Part shown: positions 21,291 through 33,739 of the stretch, in pieces
Position numbering within the stretch: the first letter of the stretch is position 1
Layout of the letters: every line of letters begins with the position of its first letter
DNA from: an uncultured Selenomonas sp.
GTDB lineage: Bacteria > Bacillota > Negativicutes > Selenomonadales > Selenomonadaceae
Direction of reading: 5' to 3'
Assembly (NCBI GenBank): GCA_900552565.1
Contig: USAK01000018.1
Coordinates: 1 to 34,339, forward strand
DNA: 34,339 nucleotides
Position numbers and translations under genes: made by a program
Notes under the pieces: model-generated
What the model saw: the letters and a program-made list of their open reading frames with translations, nothing else
What the model was told of the DNA's origin: nothing
Databases searched by the model: none

Positions 21291-21365
21291 TGGTGACACC
21301 TATGGGATTCGAACCCATGAACCCGGCGTGAGAGGCCGGTGTCTTAACCGCTTGACGAAGGTGCC
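21291..21365 (-). tRNA. tRNA-Glu(CTC), copy 3
   Basis: Acceptor GGCACCT/AGGTGTC, anticodon loop CTCTCAC within a CCGGC/GCCGG stem, TTCGAAT T loop and encoded CCA. It is the copy farthest from gltX. Confidence 0.93.
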
Positions 21366-21367
21366 GA

Positions 21368-21442
21368 TGGTGACGCCTATGGGATTCGAACCCATGAACC
21401 CGGCGTGAGAGGCCGGTGTCTTAACCACTTGACGAAGGCGCC
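21368..21442 (-). tRNA. tRNA-Glu(CTC), copy 2
   Basis: Same body as its neighbours, but the acceptor is GGCGCCT/AGGCGTC: an A-T pair in the other copies is replaced by G-C on both arms, a compensated change showing selection on the fold. The D arm also differs by one base. CCA is encoded. Confidence 0.93.
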
Positions 21443-21443
21443 G

Positions 21444-21518
21444 TGGTGACACCTATGGGATTCGAACCCATGAACCCGGCGTGAGAGGCCGGTGTCTTAA
21501 CCGCTTGACGAAGGTGCC
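21444..21518 (-). tRNA. tRNA-Glu(CTC), copy 1
   Basis: Essentially identical to copy 3. It starts 24 bp after the gltX stop codon on the same strand, with no terminator between, so it is likely cotranscribed with the synthetase. Confidence 0.93.
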
Positions 21519-25065: not shown

Positions 25066-25758
25066 ATGGATAAGCCAGTTCGTATTTTTATTGTTGAAGA
25101 TGAGCACCGCATTGCCCGTTTCCTGCAGATTGAACTCGAGCATGAGGGCTTCGAGACGGAAATCGAAGAAAATGGCACGCGTGCTTACGAACGCATCATG
25201 CAGGGGAATTTCGACCTTGTCCTGCTTGACATCATGCTGCCGGGCATGGATGGCCTGACCATCTGCAAGCGCGTGCGCGAGGTATCGTCGCTGCCTATCA
25301 TCATGCTGACGGCCAAGGATGATGTTGAGGATAAGGTTGCCGGCCTCGATATTGGTGCCGATGATTATATGACGAAGCCGTTTGCCATCGAAGAACTCAT
25401 GGCCCGCATCCGCAATGCCCTGCGCAAGCATGTGCCGGACCAGGATGGTGTGCCTCTTGAGGAACGCCTGCAGGTCAAGAACCTTGTCATGTATCCGAAA
25501 CGCTATGAGGTCGAGGTCGATGGCGAGCCGGTACATCTGACGAAGAAAGAATATTCGCTGCTCGAATACATGATGCGCAACAAACGCACGGTACTTACGC
25601 GCGACCAGATTCTCGAGAAGGTTTGGGGCTACGATTACAGCGGCGATACGAATGTCGTCGATGTCTACATCCGTTATCTGCGCGCAAAACTCGACGACCA
25701 TTTCCATGAGAAATACATTTATACGGTCCGGGGCGTAGGCTATGCTGTCAAAGAGTAA
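25066..25758 (+). CDS. OmpR/PhoB-family response regulator
   Basis: A 230-residue response regulator. The receiver domain (1-120) has the acidic pair E11-D12 and phospho-acceptor D55 in LLDIMLPGMDG, followed by the switch residues in MLTAKD and the conserved Lys in TKPF. The C-terminal winged helix (about 130-230) contains LTKKEYSLLEYMMRNKRTVLTRDQIL and the RYLRAKLD and YTVRGVGY elements of OmpR-type DNA binding. GGAGGGAAAG precedes the ATG. Its last codons overlap the kinase start, so the two are cotranscribed and coupled. Targets are not visible. Confidence 0.95.
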   Translation: MDKPVRIFIVEDEHRIARFLQIELEHEGFETEIEENGTRAYERIMQGNFDLVLLDIMLPGMDGLTICKRVREVSSLPIIMLTAKDDVEDKVAGLDIGADDYMTKPFAIEELMARIRNALRKHVPDQDGVPLEERLQVKNLVMYPKRYEVEVDGEPVHLTKKEYSLLEYMMRNKRTVLTRDQILEKVWGYDYSGDTNVVDVYIRYLRAKLDDHFHEKYIYTVRGVGYAVKE

Positions 25759-27220
25759 GGCCGTCCTGCACCGCCTTTATCTGCGCAGCCCGCTCTGGCG
25801 CATGAAAATCTCGACGAAGATTACCTGCCTTTATGCAGCCATCCTGCTCATCGTGCTCATGTTCACGAGCATCATCATGGGGCTGGGCATCTATTTTTCG
25901 TTCTATCATGAAGCGGACCGTGAAATCAATATTGCGATGGAAGGCGTGAAGCGCGGACTCGGGTCTTCCGGGAGCCTTCAGGAATTTCTGGAGGCCGGCA
26001 GTGTTGTGCCGCCGGGCATCGTCCTGCGGGTGACGGACCTCACGGGACGCGTGGTTTATGAAACCGATTCACGCTATCCTTCGCTGGATATGGTGGAAAA
26101 GTACCGCGTGAAAAATCCGCCGTTCTGGGCGGATAAGAGCATGGATGTCGTGGCGTTTGACCGGTTCACGATTTATCATGCGACCATGGACGTCGTGGAC
26201 CATGGTCAGGTTTATCAGATGCATTTTTTCCGTACCATTACGACGGAAAATTATTTTCTGGAGCATCTGCAGCAGCTGATTTTCATCATCACGATTATTG
26301 GCTTCATCGTTGCTTTGCTGGCCGGCTACTTCCTGAGCAGCCGCATCCTGCAGCCGATACGTGACCTTACACAGACGGCGCGCAAGATTGAAGTCGAGCG
26401 CATGGACCGCCGCATCGAGGTGCCGCCGGCACATGATGAACTCGCGGAACTCGCGTCGACATTCAATCATATGCTCGACCGTCTCGAACGCGGCTTTCAG
26501 CAGCAGCAGCGTTTCGTCTCGGATGCCTCGCATGAACTGCGGACCCCGGTGACGGTCATCCTCGGGTATTCGGATCTCCTGTCGCGCTGGGGCAGCTCCG
26601 ACACGAAGATTCTCGAAGAAGGCATCACTGCCATCCGCTCCGAGGCTGAGGATATGCAGGACCTCATAGAGAAGCTTCTTTTCTTAGCGCGGGCTGACCA
26701 AAAGCGCCAGATTCTTCATAAGGACGTCATCAATCTGGCGGAGGTCGTCGATGATGCCGTGCGCAAGATGCAGCTGGTAACGAAGAAACATACGCTGACG
26801 CTGGCAGAAAATGAGGCAGGCTTGATTTTTGCCGACCCCGCGACGATGCGCCAGATGATGCGTATTTTCCTCGAAAATGCCGTCAAGTATACGCCGGAGG
26901 GCGGTCACATCGAAGTAGCATCGCGGTGCGTTCCCGATGAAAAAGCCATGAGACTGACCTTTGCCGACAATGGCATCGGCATTGCGGAAGAAGACCAGTC
27001 CAAAATCTTTGAACGTTTCTACCGCGCGGATACCTCGCGGACGAAGCAGGCAGGCAGTGTCGGCGGTACAGGCCTCGGCCTCTCTATTGCCAGCTGGATT
27101 GCTGAGCAGCATGACATCACGATTGATGTAGAAAGCCAGCTCGGCCAAGGTACAAAATTCATCCTGACCATTCCTTTGGCAGACGAACAAACGATAAAAG
27201 AACATGGACAGCAGGCCTGA
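25742..27220 (+). CDS. Membrane sensor histidine kinase
   Basis: The partner kinase, 492 residues. TM1 is about 30-52, an extracytoplasmic sensor domain of about 125 residues follows, then TM2 (about 180-200) and a HAMP linker (SSRILQPIRDLTQTARKIE). The phospho-acceptor is H264 in DASHELRTPVT. The ATPase domain has N-box NAVKYTPEGG, G1 DNGIGIAEED, F-box FERFYRAD and G2 GTGLGLSIA. ATG 25742 overlaps the regulator by 17 bp; ATG 25802 is an alternative that would still keep TM1. The signal sensed is unknown. A terminator follows. Confidence 0.94.
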   Translation: MLSKSKAVLHRLYLRSPLWRMKISTKITCLYAAILLIVLMFTSIIMGLGIYFSFYHEADREINIAMEGVKRGLGSSGSLQEFLEAGSVVPPGIVLRVTDLTGRVVYETDSRYPSLDMVEKYRVKNPPFWADKSMDVVAFDRFTIYHATMDVVDHGQVYQMHFFRTITTENYFLEHLQQLIFIITIIGFIVALLAGYFLSSRILQPIRDLTQTARKIEVERMDRRIEVPPAHDELAELASTFNHMLDRLERGFQQQQRFVSDASHELRTPVTVILGYSDLLSRWGSSDTKILEEGITAIRSEAEDMQDLIEKLLFLARADQKRQILHKDVINLAEVVDDAVRKMQLVTKKHTLTLAENEAGLIFADPATMRQMMRIFLENAVKYTPEGGHIEVASRCVPDEKAMRLTFADNGIGIAEEDQSKIFERFYRADTSRTKQAGSVGGTGLGLSIASWIAEQHDITIDVESQLGQGTKFILTIPLADEQTIKEHGQQA

Positions 27221-27228
27221 AAAGGCAG

Positions 27229-27268
27229 AAAAAATCCCATTGCCGCATGATATGGCAATGGGATTTTT
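27229..27268. terminator. Bidirectional terminator between kinase and SHMT-like gene
   Basis: AAAATCCCATTGCC pairs with GGCAATGGGATTTT around GCATGATAT, with A and T runs on the two sides. Confidence 0.85.
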
Positions 27269-27287: not shown

Positions 27288-28604
27288 TTAATGGAATAAG
27301 CGGCCAAACAGATTCTTTTTTTCGCTTGAGGCGATATGGCGGATGCTGAGTTCGTCGGCACCGTTGAAGAATGTGTCGGGGTCTGCTACATCAGCGAGCC
27401 ATTCTTCTGAGTAAATTGGCTTATCGATGAGCATGGAGCTGATTTTTTTGCGGATGGCTTCAAGTTCTGCAGCATCGGTCGTGTGCAGGGCTTTGGCAAG
27501 CATCTGGCCGACCATGACCATCTCTTTTTCTTTGAGAGAGCGTGTGGTCGGATTGAGACTGGAAAGGCGCAGCACAGGGTGAGCCGGCGTATTGTCCTTC
27601 CAGGAAAGATGTGCCGTCTTGACGAGGAAACCGGCGCGGTGCAGATGCTGTTCAATCTGCTGCGGGTCCGTGCCGTCAGGCAGGGCGGCGACGACGAGGT
27701 GACAGTCCGTATCGTCACCCCAGACATTGACGCCGGAGTCCTTGAGCACGATGCTCAGCGTCTTGGCGTTGGCGATGACCTGCTCACCGTAGAGATGGAA
27801 ATTCTGGCTGCCTGCCTCGAGCAGCGCGACAGCAAGAGCTGCCAGACGGTTCTTGTGCAGGGCCGAATGGCCGTGTTCGATGACGGCGCGGTCTAATGTC
27901 TCGGCAAGTTCTTTCTTGCAGAGGATGATGGCACCTTCCGGTCCCTGCAGGGAGTCATTCGTCGGGAACGTCACGATATCCGCGTCCTGGACAGGCGAGG
28001 GCAGAAGCCCTGCCGCGACGAGTCCGACGTTCTGGCCGATATCGACCCAGAGCAGGGCGCCGGCATCATGTGCCGTCTTGGCCAGGCGTTTCGTGTCAAT
28101 GGTGAAAGGAAAGCTTGTCGGCGAAAAGATGATGATTTTTGGCTGATGGCGGTCAATCTGCTCATTGAGCTCCTGCCAGTCGATATCGTGGTTTTTCCAG
28201 TCGGGGCCGAACGTGGAGAAGCGATAGCTGAGGCCCTGGCAGTGTTCTTTCTTGCGCCCGTTGAACGAAAGCACGGGATTGCCGGGCTTCAAGAGGGCGA
28301 GAAATACGACACGCGAGGCAGCGCTGATGCTGCTGAGGCGCACGATGGCGTGTTCTGCACCGAAGCGTTTTTTGGCGCGTTCGACGGCAATGCGTTCAAA
28401 CCGTCCCGTGCGGCTGATGCCGTGGTAATCCGTGCTGACATTGGCGAGGATGCTGCCCTCAAGATAAGCAGCCAGCGGCGATTCAGCATTGACCGTCGGT
28501 ATGAGCGACAGGGTGAAACGCTGCTCTTCAATCTCGTCCTGGAATTCAGCAAAGACTTCTTCATCGAGTTTTTTCAGCGTACCAAGTAATTCTTCTCTAT
28601 CCAT
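27288..28604 (-). CDS. SHMT-like fold-type I protein lacking the PLP lysine (probable pseudoenzyme)
   Basis: A 438-residue protein that follows serine hydroxymethyltransferase from end to end: LDEEVF start, AVERAKKRFGAEHA, LLKPGNPVL, VGLVAAGLLPSPV, SLQGPEGAIIL, and VLRLSSLNPTTRSL with R346. The active site is changed. The segment that in SHMT reads TTTHKTLxGPRGG reads FPTNDSLQGPEGA, so the Schiff-base Lys aligns with D217 and its His with N216. D188 that pairs with the PLP ring is kept, but the DxxH His is Q191, and IASEN becomes IPTVN. It therefore probably cannot bind PLP covalently. ATG 28604 follows ACGAGG; an ATG at 28646 is weaker. It lies 58 bp after the SLC13 gene, likely in one operon. 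Role unknown. Confidence 0.78.
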   Translation of the reverse strand: MDREELLGTLKKLDEEVFAEFQDEIEEQRFTLSLIPTVNAESPLAAYLEGSILANVSTDYHGISRTGRFERIAVERAKKRFGAEHAIVRLSSISAASRVVFLALLKPGNPVLSFNGRKKEHCQGLSYRFSTFGPDWKNHDIDWQELNEQIDRHQPKIIIFSPTSFPFTIDTKRLAKTAHDAGALLWVDIGQNVGLVAAGLLPSPVQDADIVTFPTNDSLQGPEGAIILCKKELAETLDRAVIEHGHSALHKNRLAALAVALLEAGSQNFHLYGEQVIANAKTLSIVLKDSGVNVWGDDTDCHLVVAALPDGTDPQQIEQHLHRAGFLVKTAHLSWKDNTPAHPVLRLSSLNPTTRSLKEKEMVMVGQMLAKALHTTDAAELEAIRKKISSMLIDKPIYSEEWLADVADPDTFFNGADELSIRHIASSEKKNLFGRLFH

Positions 28605-28661
28605 AAATGTACCTCGTATTCTTTCTGTAGATTCAATGATATTCATGATATTCCTGTGTCA

Positions 28662-29921
28662 TCAGAACGGCCAGACCATCGGGATGATGACAGCGCAGAC
28701 AATCAGGGAAATGAAAACAAGCGGCAGGCCGACCTTAACATAATCCATGAAATGGAATTTGCCAGGGCTCAGGATAAGCGTATTCGGCGGCGTAGCAACC
28801 GGCGTCGTGAAGGCGCAGGAGGCAGCGATGCCGATGGCCATGAGCACAGGGAACGGCGAGACGCCGATGGACTGGGCAATCGAGATGCCAATCGGGGCGA
28901 GCAGGGCTGCAGCTGCGGTATTCGACATGAACTGCGTCAGGCCGCACGACAGCAGGAAAAGGGCCACGACAATGATCATCGGGGAGGCGTTGCTGCCGAT
29001 GATGCTGACGACGAAATTGGCAATCATGGCACCGGCACCGGTCTTATCCATAGCTTCTGCCAAAGGCAGCATGCCGGCAAACAGGAAAATCGTCGTCCAG
29101 TCGATGCCGCCATAGGCCTGCTTCTCACTGAGGCAGCCCGTGACGACACAGGCCAGTGCACCGATGATGGCCGAGACCTGCATGGGGACATTGATGGTCT
29201 TGGACATGGCCATAGCCACGACGACAAGAATCAGGATGGCTGCACAAATCGCCATTTTGCGCGTGTCCTTCGGAAGGTCGGAGGTCAGGTCGCTCAGGGC
29301 ACTGTCAATATGGCCATGCGGGCAGAGCCGGCGGCCGATGGTCAGCATGTAGATGAGACCTGTGACAGAGAGCGGGATGCCAATCCAGGCGAACTCAAAG
29401 AAGCCGAATGGCTGCAGGCCGCTGGCTGAAAGCGTCGCACTCATGAGGATGTTCGGCGGTGTGCCGATCATCGTGATGGTACCGCCGACGTTGGCGGCTA
29501 CAGCAAGAGCCATGAGCTGCGGCGAAACAGCGAGACGCGCCACCGCGCAGATCTGGATGACAACAGGCATCAGGCAGGCGACTGTTGCCGTATTGGACGA
29601 GACCGAAGACAGGATGATTGTGACAATCATGATGGCGGCCATCAGCCGTTTTTCGCCGGTGCCGGCTGCATGGACCACGGAGATGCCGATGCGTTGGGCA
29701 AGGCCCGTCTGGAACATGGCAGCACCGATGACGAACATGCCGGCAAACAGGACGACTGTGGAATTTGACAGGCCGGAAAAGACCTGTTTTGGCGTTAGAA
29801 CGCCGAGCAGACCGAGCGCAATCGAAGCACTCATGGCAGTGACTGCCAGCGGGATAAGCTCGGTCACGAAGAAAAAGGCTGCAACCCCGAGGACAATCAG
29901 GGTCAATACTGCTGGATCCAT
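28662..29921 (-). CDS. SLC13/DASS-family anion permease
   Basis: A 419-residue polytopic transporter with two inverted-repeat halves. Each carries the SNT motif (SVSSNTATVACL and FMSNTAAAALL) and a TPPN loop (IGTPPNIL and VATPPNTLIL), the hallmarks of the DASS/SLC13 group, which takes up dicarboxylates, citrate or sulfate with sodium. Length is somewhat short but both halves are complete. GGGAG precedes the start. The SHMT-like gene follows closely on the same strand and the AbrB-family gene precedes it by 157 bp. The substrate cannot be assigned by eye. Confidence 0.88.
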   Translation of the reverse strand: MDPAVLTLIVLGVAAFFFVTELIPLAVTAMSASIALGLLGVLTPKQVFSGLSNSTVVLFAGMFVIGAAMFQTGLAQRIGISVVHAAGTGEKRLMAAIMIVTIILSSVSSNTATVACLMPVVIQICAVARLAVSPQLMALAVAANVGGTITMIGTPPNILMSATLSASGLQPFGFFEFAWIGIPLSVTGLIYMLTIGRRLCPHGHIDSALSDLTSDLPKDTRKMAICAAILILVVVAMAMSKTINVPMQVSAIIGALACVVTGCLSEKQAYGGIDWTTIFLFAGMLPLAEAMDKTGAGAMIANFVVSIIGSNASPMIIVVALFLLSCGLTQFMSNTAAAALLAPIGISIAQSIGVSPFPVLMAIGIAASCAFTTPVATPPNTLILSPGKFHFMDYVKVGLPLVFISLIVCAVIIPMVWPF

Positions 29922-32399: not shown

Positions 32400-32428
32400 T
32401 TGCATCCTTGTACTGTTTAGTGTATACT
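32400..32428 (+). promoter_or_regulatory. Promoter of sstT
   Basis: TTGCAT (32400-32405), a 17-bp spacer and TATACT (32423-32428), about 50 bp before the start codon. Confidence 0.55.
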
Positions 32429-32485
32429 AACATATGTATTTTTGAGAGAAACGCGAAGTGTTTGATGCGTTTAAGGAGGATTCAT

Positions 32486-33739
32486 ATGTTACATAAAATC
32501 GGTAAGAAGTACCGGGAGACCGCCCTCATCAAGCTCATTGCGGTCGGACTGGTACTCGGTATCATCATAGCCCTGGCTGCACCGCAGGCCGTACCGGCCG
32601 TGGCAGTTCTCGGCGATCTCTTTGTTCGTGCCCTCAAGGGCGTGGCACCAGTACTTGTCTTCGTGCTTGTCATGAATGCCCTGGCGCAGAAGAATTCGGA
32701 CGCCAGTGCCTCGATGAAGCCGATTGTCCGCCTTTACATCGTGGCGACGTTCTGTGCTTCGCTGGTGGCTGTGGCATATTCCTTTGCCTTCCCGACGGTC
32801 CTGCATCTGCAGGTCGCACCGGATGCGCAGCTCGCGCCGCCATCGGGCATCATCGAGGTCCTGCATAACCTTATCCTGTCGGTCGTCGACAACCCAATTC
32901 ATGCACTCGCGAATGCCAATTACATCGGTATCCTCGCCTGGGCCTGCCTCGCAGGCATTGCCCTGCATGCGGCCAATGACACGACGAAGACCATGCTCAA
33001 TGATTTTGCGAAGACCGTCACGAAAATCGTGCAGTGGATTATCCGCTTTGCTCCGTTCGGCATCATGGGCCTCGTGGCCAACGCCATCGGCACGAGCGGT
33101 CTCGGTGCCCTGCTCGGCTACATTCAGGTCCTCGGTGTTCTGCTCGTAGCGTTCTTCTCGGTGGCTCTCATCATGAACCCGCTGATTGTTTATCTGCACA
33201 TCCATCGCAATCCGTATCCGCTCGTCTGGACGACGCTCAAGGAAAGCGGCCTCTATGCGTTCTTTACGCGCAGCTCGGCAGCGAATATTCCTGTGAACCT
33301 TTCGCTCTGCAAACGCCTCGGCCTTGACGAGGATACGTACTCGATTTCTATCCCGCTCGGCGCAACCATCAATATGAGCGGTGCGGCCATCACGATTGCC
33401 GTGCTTTCGCTGGCTGCGGCTCATACGCTCGGCATTGCCATTGACCTGCCGACGGCGCTGCTGCTCTGCATTGTTTCGACCATCGGTGCCTGCGGTGCTT
33501 CGGGCGTTGCCGGCGGCTCGCTGCTGCTCATTCCTGTGGCCTGCGCATCCTTCGGTATCGGCAATGACATTGCCATGCAGGTTGTCGGTGTCGGCTTCAT
33601 CATCGGCGTCATTCAGGATGCTTGCGAGACGGCTTTGAACAGCTCGACGGATGTTCTCTTCACGGCAACGGCAGAATTTGCCCAGCGCGCTAAAGAGGGC
33701 AAGCTGCGCGATGAGGACCTCGTTCCGCACAATAACTGA
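32486..33739 (+). CDS. sstT: Serine/threonine:sodium symporter SstT
   Basis: A 417-residue member of the dicarboxylate/amino acid:cation symporter family, importing serine and threonine with Na+. It has about eight helices and the family re-entrant-loop features: [13 protein letters not shown] (serine-rich hairpin), [10 protein letters not shown] (the NMxG-type cation site) and [16 protein letters not shown]. The N-terminus fits SstT rather than glutamate carriers. ATG 32486 follows a perfect AAGGAGG; the longer frame from 32408 overlaps the promoter and is rejected. A terminator follows. Confidence 0.93.

Follow-up and report, generated by a model that had tools for sequence, protein, structure and literature searches.

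A gene at 27288..28604 (−) of the window, the 34,339-nucleotide (nt) stretch of DNA analysed here (positions 1 to 34,339 of contig USAK01000018.1, assembly GCA_900552565.1, uncultured Selenomonas sp.), encodes a protein of the serine hydroxymethyltransferase (SHMT) family that is without the lysine to which pyridoxal 5′-phosphate (PLP) is normally bound. Its listed homologues are likewise without this lysine, form one clade, are under purifying selection, possess invariant residues of their own and are linked to transporter genes; the old enzyme shape has seemingly been given a new job, because the relatives lacking the lysine are kept intact and usually lie beside a transporter, in most cases one of an organic-acid type. 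It is tentatively proposed, at somewhat less than an even chance, that this SHMT descendant binds a small carboxylate and acts as partner, probably as regulator, of the transporter. The fold and the family are already known; the lysine-less, transporter-linked branch appears to be new within the open-licence PubMed Central literature.

Gene and family assignment

The frame (27288..28604, −; 438 amino acids) contains no internal stop. An in-frame ATG is also present at 28646; the full-length homologues start at the ATG at 28604, which is preceded at 7 nt by a GAGG ribosome-binding site (28612..28615, −). The intact frame and good ribosome site given in the preliminary description of this DNA were thus both found. 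Pfam SHMT (PF00464) spans residues 10–368 (161.4 bits; cut-off 27); the NCBIfam SHMT subfamily model gave 229.2 bits, below its cut-off of 335, and would therefore not call the protein GlyA. The closest PDB entry by sequence is B. stearothermophilus SHMT (2vmn, E 8.7e-49), the numbering of which is denoted bs or bsSHMT below. Foldseek and VIA-align gave SHMT alone in the best 50 rows of each, which has no bearing on other families. The protein thus belongs to SHMT by fold and by sequence family; the further statement that the whole length and the backbone motifs are kept was too generous, since the loop YAEGYPGxRYYGGCEYVD is shortened and unconserved and the GSPVN segment is deleted.

Loss of the lysine and maintenance of the gene

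Alignment placed Asp217 (codon 27954..27956, −) at the Schiff-base lysine (bs K226) and confirmed Asn216 for the preceding histidine and Gln191 for the DxxH histidine; the IASEN region, described as altered, reads IPTVN. Two homologue searches were evaluated (the best 120 of 900 matches of the first and 108 further listed matches of the second, some near-identical or partial); none of these 228 listed homologues has lysine at that position (D 185, E 38, G 3, A 2), and in three of the 61 genes fetched with their surroundings (L094, L121, L123) the position is an alignment gap. Lysine is present in 30/30 canonical GlyA and in 120/120 proteins listed for the sister group with lysine described below, so chance is excluded as the cause of its absence. 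The orthologues in the close relatives Mitsuokella jalaludinii and M. multacida (79–80% identity) are also without it, and a canonical glyA was found in both Mitsuokella genomes (G001, G002), on contigs other than that of the lysine-less gene. A single-strain mutation was rejected, the lysine being missing in every homologue examined.

Nei–Gojobori ratios of nonsynonymous to synonymous rates (dN/dS) were 0.111 and 0.117 against M. jalaludinii and M. multacida, respectively; for the neighbouring genes: 0.05–0.06 (transporter of the DASS family), 0.11 (histidine kinase), 0.02 (response regulator). Constraint on the gene is evident, though looser than that on the transporter gene. Thirty columns are fully invariant across 48 sequences; the 52 first-fetched genes are open over at least 411 amino acids; one match (G062) is partial (profile positions 1–351, open frame of 363 amino acids). 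Decay was rejected on the ratios and the invariant columns, and the description of the gene as a maintained pseudoenzyme or repurposed fold holds in view of these ratios, the loss of the same lysine throughout the family examined, the close orthologues and the glyA elsewhere. That description contained neither the linkage to transporter genes nor the invariant residues peculiar to the family.

Extent of the family and sister group

A profile run over 189 genomes of the Mitsuokella family returned 122 lysine-less genes in 89 genomes, the lysine-less genes scoring at least 456 bits and ordinary GlyA at most 310 bits. Over 300 genomes of the whole class all matches of at least 564 bits lay within Mitsuokella family genomes; the next five (351–378 bits) were lysine-keeping paralogues in four genomes, and the sixth (L120, 341 bits) was an ordinary GlyA. 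In the tree a branch separates the 52 first-fetched lysine-less genes from 30 GlyA (SH-like approximate likelihood-ratio test, SH-aLRT, 100), and the lysine-keeping paralogues (Sporomusa and others; P0230–P0349, L115–L119) form the sister group of these genes (SH-aLRT 100). The stem of the lysine-less clade measures 1.24 changes per column. The tree program warned of long branches meeting here, so that the attachment point is less certain than the support value suggests.

Trp402 and, mostly, Trp186 are common to both groups, and both have lost bs Y51, Y60, Y61, G94 and T223; the sister group differs in keeping the lysine and in having no Arg117–Lys118 pair. It presumably still consists of PLP enzymes. 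A homologue search with the sister paralogues gave 8000 scored matches, and all 120 listed carry Lys; in 380 genomes of the class five sister-type genes were found (>840 bits; next match 539). Three of the five have an SDF or glutamate symporter adjoining or in the vicinity: L115 (SDF symporter and Asp/Glu racemase), L116 (SDF symporter and fumarase-like lyase) and L118 (glutamate symporter nearby). A formiminotransferase is near L119; the gene adjoining L117 matched no family, and some 3 kb away is a permease of the purine/cytosine type. With the lysine still present in the sister group, the route by which an enzyme became a non-enzyme is retraceable and testable.

L115 and L116 come from one Sporomusa-like genome, in which some 22 kb separate them; each has an SDF symporter nearby, and they are perhaps catabolic enzymes of some substrate. 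Protein P0056 matches a 411-amino-acid paralogue in its N-terminal part and a 441-amino-acid one in its C-terminal part; it may be a product of gene conversion or an assembly chimera.

The former active site

Residues were counted over the 52 first-fetched genes and nine fetched later (61 in total); the roles given for PLP-site residues are those generally described for SHMT, several of the residues being named in PDB entry titles. Asp188 (codon 28041..28043, −), corresponding to bsSHMT Asp197, which presumably contacts the pyridine nitrogen, and Arg346 (codon 27567..27569, −), corresponding to bsSHMT Arg357, which we take to bind the substrate carboxylate, are kept in 61/61. H121 (bs His122, assumed here to be the PLP-stacking histidine) is His or Tyr in 58/61. 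Gone or nearly gone are S172, H200, T223, H225, Y61, G94 and K226 (bs numbering), of which S172 (0/61), H200 (2/61) and K226 (0/61) are lost in the lysine-less group only and not in the sister genes; E53 is kept in 9/61. The loop with bs Tyr51, Glu53, Tyr60 and Tyr61, presumably that which completes the active site of the neighbouring subunit, is shortened and unconserved in all 52 first-fetched genes.

A new pair, Arg117–Lys118 (codons 28251..28256, −), is invariant in 228/228 listed homologues and missing from all 30 GlyA and all five sister genes aligned; Lys118 sits in the segment just N-terminal to the PLP-stacking histidine and is a candidate for another lysine in the active site. GlyA is without fourteen residues that are fixed to at least 97% in the lysine-less family: S33, P36, R89, S113, R117, K118, F129, S161, P162, W186, G245, L257, S348 and W402; the five sister genes likewise have none of eleven of them (exceptions S113, W186, W402), and several align beside former PLP or substrate contacts. 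Compared with GlyA (PF00464), the family is without the PLP lysine, most residues in contact with PLP and the Tyr/Glu loop that acts in trans, retains the substrate-carboxylate Arg and the pyridine-nitrogen Asp, and has the new Arg–Lys pair, a C-terminal extension and a position mostly adjoining a transporter gene.

Transporter neighbourhood

Directly upstream, with 57 nt from its stop to the ATG at 28604, lies the gene of a DASS/CitMHS anion:Na+ symporter (28662..29921, −), a relative of VcINDY (TIGR00785, 210.2 bits; cut-off 198.6) with both SNT motifs (S109-N110-T111 and S333-N334-T335), which are invariant in 14 sequences. No promoter- or terminator-like site was found in the gap between the two genes on a scan or on its repeat.

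Transporter units house 49 of the 52 first-fetched genes. The gene directly upstream on the same strand is that of a DASS transporter (26), a CitMHS-clan permease (14) or a GPH symporter (2); five genes are second in a tandem pair behind DASS; a split permease lies upstream of L082 and a permease downstream of L104, and three have none (DASS and permease assignments by sequence clusters, Pfam being run on representatives). The nine later genes, chosen mainly because two transporter profiles had found no neighbour for them, comprise four with a transporter and five without a recognised one. At three loci without a recognised transporter the neighbours were tested: an AAA ATPase at L125, no family at L131 and L078. 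Family-wide, a profile-recognised transporter lies within 2.5 kb of 83/122 genes (DASS 42, permease 41), upstream on the same strand in 83/86 such pairs; the remaining 39 genes, inspected in part, include diverged DASS (L072, L126) and GPH loci (L079, L129). Conversely, close DASS orthologues adjoin a lysine-less gene in 31/35 cases and the closest permeases in 29/31. Beyond the transporter the gene clusters mostly differ between loci, close relatives sharing longer stretches. The CitMHS-clan permease scored 26.6–33.1 bits with Pfam CitMHS around its cut-off of 31.9 (three tested); no NCBIfam family (one tested) and no credible PDB relative were found for it, and its predicted model (pLDDT, predicted local distance difference test, 45) was too poor for use.

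At L065, L066, L067, L085 and L086 (Selenomonas-type) two tandem lysine-less genes follow one DASS gene, the second being without the C-terminal tail; the two copies might form a heterodimer with each other. A GPH sugar:cation symporter is upstream in L079, L095, L122 and L129, and a chemotaxis-receptor gene follows in L079, L095 and L129; a Cache domain was shown for the receptor of L079.

C-terminal tail

Residues 403–438 (27291..27398, −), after Trp402, form an extension outside the SHMT fold that ends in a short basic helix, EKKxLFxxLF. Such tails of 36–42 residues after Trp402 are present in 23/26 genes directly behind DASS, many with a terminal basic helix of this kind; permease- and GPH-linked genes mostly end in a short DLMMKAMxYG-like piece, and the second copies of tandem pairs end soon after Trp402.

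Proposed function and alternatives

A carboxylate-binding transporter partner is the simplest reading of a protein that has lost the normal PLP anchor, has kept the carboxylate Arg and stands behind carboxylate-type transporters. On this reading an SHMT paralogue gave rise to a maintained protein without the lysine, which within the searched genomes is confined to the Mitsuokella/Selenomonas family and is probably produced along with a transporter of the carboxylate type. Its SHMT fold is kept and its dimer probably so; PLP can no longer be held as internal aldimine at its normal place, and the old active site, with R346 and D188 retained and Arg117–Lys118 gained, probably binds a small carboxylate or anion non-covalently. 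A cytoplasmic partner of this kind could sense the substrate or product of the transporter inside the cell and adjust transport, perhaps while docked on the transporter through the C-terminal tail. Carboxylate binding, physical contact with the transporter and regulation are the parts of this picture that are predicted from sequence and gene order. A bolder form, in which a soluble carboxylate sensor gates DASS elevator, CitMHS-clan and MFS (GPH) transporters, the fold being handed between them and the tail changing alongside, is less likely than not; if true, a dead PLP enzyme would have given rise to a transporter regulator of a new class.

Several observations weigh against the transporter-partner reading. 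The SHMT-like gene evolves faster than the transporter (identity between the window and L001: 79% against 94% for DASS); 8/61 fetched genes are without a recognisable adjacent transporter; second-tier permeases (800–895 bits) adjoin a lysine-less gene in only 9/55 cases; and the GPH symporters are named for glycosides and hexuronides, not for simple dicarboxylates. The terminal helix is of low confidence in the predicted model. The type of tail tracks both partner and tree and is therefore a hint of docking only. PLP-site columns are kept in 2/15 cases and other GlyA-conserved columns in 46/254 (Fisher p = 1); the protein has thus diverged throughout, the pocket not being singled out. The sister genes, which keep the lysine, have Y51, Y60, Y61, G94 and T223 in 0/5 each and S93 and H225 in 1/5 each, so these losses preceded the loss of the lysine or were independent of it. 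Selective erosion of the PLP site is consequently unsupported, and it is the newly invariant residues, not the lost ones, that argue for a re-made pocket.

A transporter as partner is also compatible with an enzyme working on the compound taken up. Such a PLP-free enzyme, with a pocket of D217, R117, K118, H121 and R346 catalysing, for example, hydration, isomerisation or retro-aldol cleavage of an imported carboxylate, would agree with the invariant polar and charged residues aligned at or near former catalytic positions, with the usual carboxylate- or sugar-type symporter or permease as partner and with fast divergence alongside fixed columns. Position 217, however, varies among D, E, G, A and a gap, and so is unlike a catalytic residue; we know of no SHMT-fold enzyme without PLP, and none was found in searches of the open-licence PubMed Central literature. 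This enzyme is considered rather unlikely. Continued use of a B6 cofactor is less likely again: PLP or pyridoxamine 5′-phosphate (PMP) would sit between H121 and D188 without a covalent bond, or Lys118 would carry it as a Schiff base. The constancy of D188, of His or Tyr at 121 and of Lys118 speaks for it, and bsSHMT K226M and K226Q were crystallised as serine or glycine complexes (PDB entry titles), so that the lysine may be dispensable for binding. As the sister genes are presumably PLP enzymes, the contact losses shared with them are alone no argument against PLP; S172, H200, K226 and E53 are lost or mostly lost beyond these, though, and R117 and K118 belong to neither GlyA nor the sister genes.

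SHMTs are dimers, and the protein might, by analogy with those PLP enzymes that include an inactive alpha subunit, pair with true GlyA and tune it. A further SHMT match is indeed present besides the lysine-less gene(s) in 83/89 genomes (that of G062 is not confirmed as canonical), but six genomes, possibly incomplete, show the lysine-less match alone (G003, G158, G161, G179, G181, G186). With glyA on another contig in both Mitsuokella genomes, transporters adjoining most loci examined and no loop left to complete the active site of a partner, this pairing appears improbable. A dying glyA duplicate would account for the lost catalytic residues and the partial match of G062; at a dN/dS of 0.11, with 52 genes open over at least 411 amino acids and 30 columns invariant among 48 sequences, it is hardly credible.

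Comparison with known systems

Serine palmitoyltransferase LCB1/SPTLC1 and the glycine decarboxylase alpha subunit are inactive PLP-fold subunits paired with an active homologue. The family resembles subunits of this type in being of fold-type I, without the lysine and maintained by selection; the conserved neighbour here is a transporter, and at the tandem loci a second lysine-less copy. In the PMP-dependent sugar dehydratases E1 and ColD, also fold-type I proteins with the lysine replaced, His stands for Lys and the cofactor is still used; the present family usually has Asp or Glu and is only a possible user of the cofactor. A soluble SHMT-like partner of DASS/VcINDY was not found in transporter-related searches of the open-licence PubMed Central literature, nor was a lysine-less, transporter-linked SHMT branch found in the searches made there. 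Should the link to the transporter prove functional, the fold of a PLP enzyme will have become a carboxylate-binding partner for transporters of several kinds.

Several named members are labelled serine hydroxymethyltransferase or glycine hydroxymethyltransferase in databases, most listed members being nameless; as the members so mislabelled are without the catalytic lysine, one-carbon predictions for Selenomonas and Mitsuokella can count the wrong gene.

Other features of the loci

A terminator-like hairpin (27230..27268; 16 pairs, T runs on both sides) lies between the SHMT-like gene and a convergent response regulator and histidine kinase pair (25066-27220, +), the kinase being adjacent to it. 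In L070 the same response regulator and histidine kinase clusters are upstream of DASS on the same strand. An SDF sodium:dicarboxylate symporter (32408-33739, +), about 4 kb from the SHMT-like gene, is a second dicarboxylate carrier nearby. A RelB/DinJ-like antitoxin gene (cluster c10; L066 7069-7365) stands directly after the lysine-less copy in L065, L066, L068, L069 and L085; that of L066, the one tested, scored 43.7 bits, just below the cut-off of 45.65. Three tRNA-Glu(ctc) genes are found in a row at 21291-21518 (−) of the window; L001 has two and L002 three.
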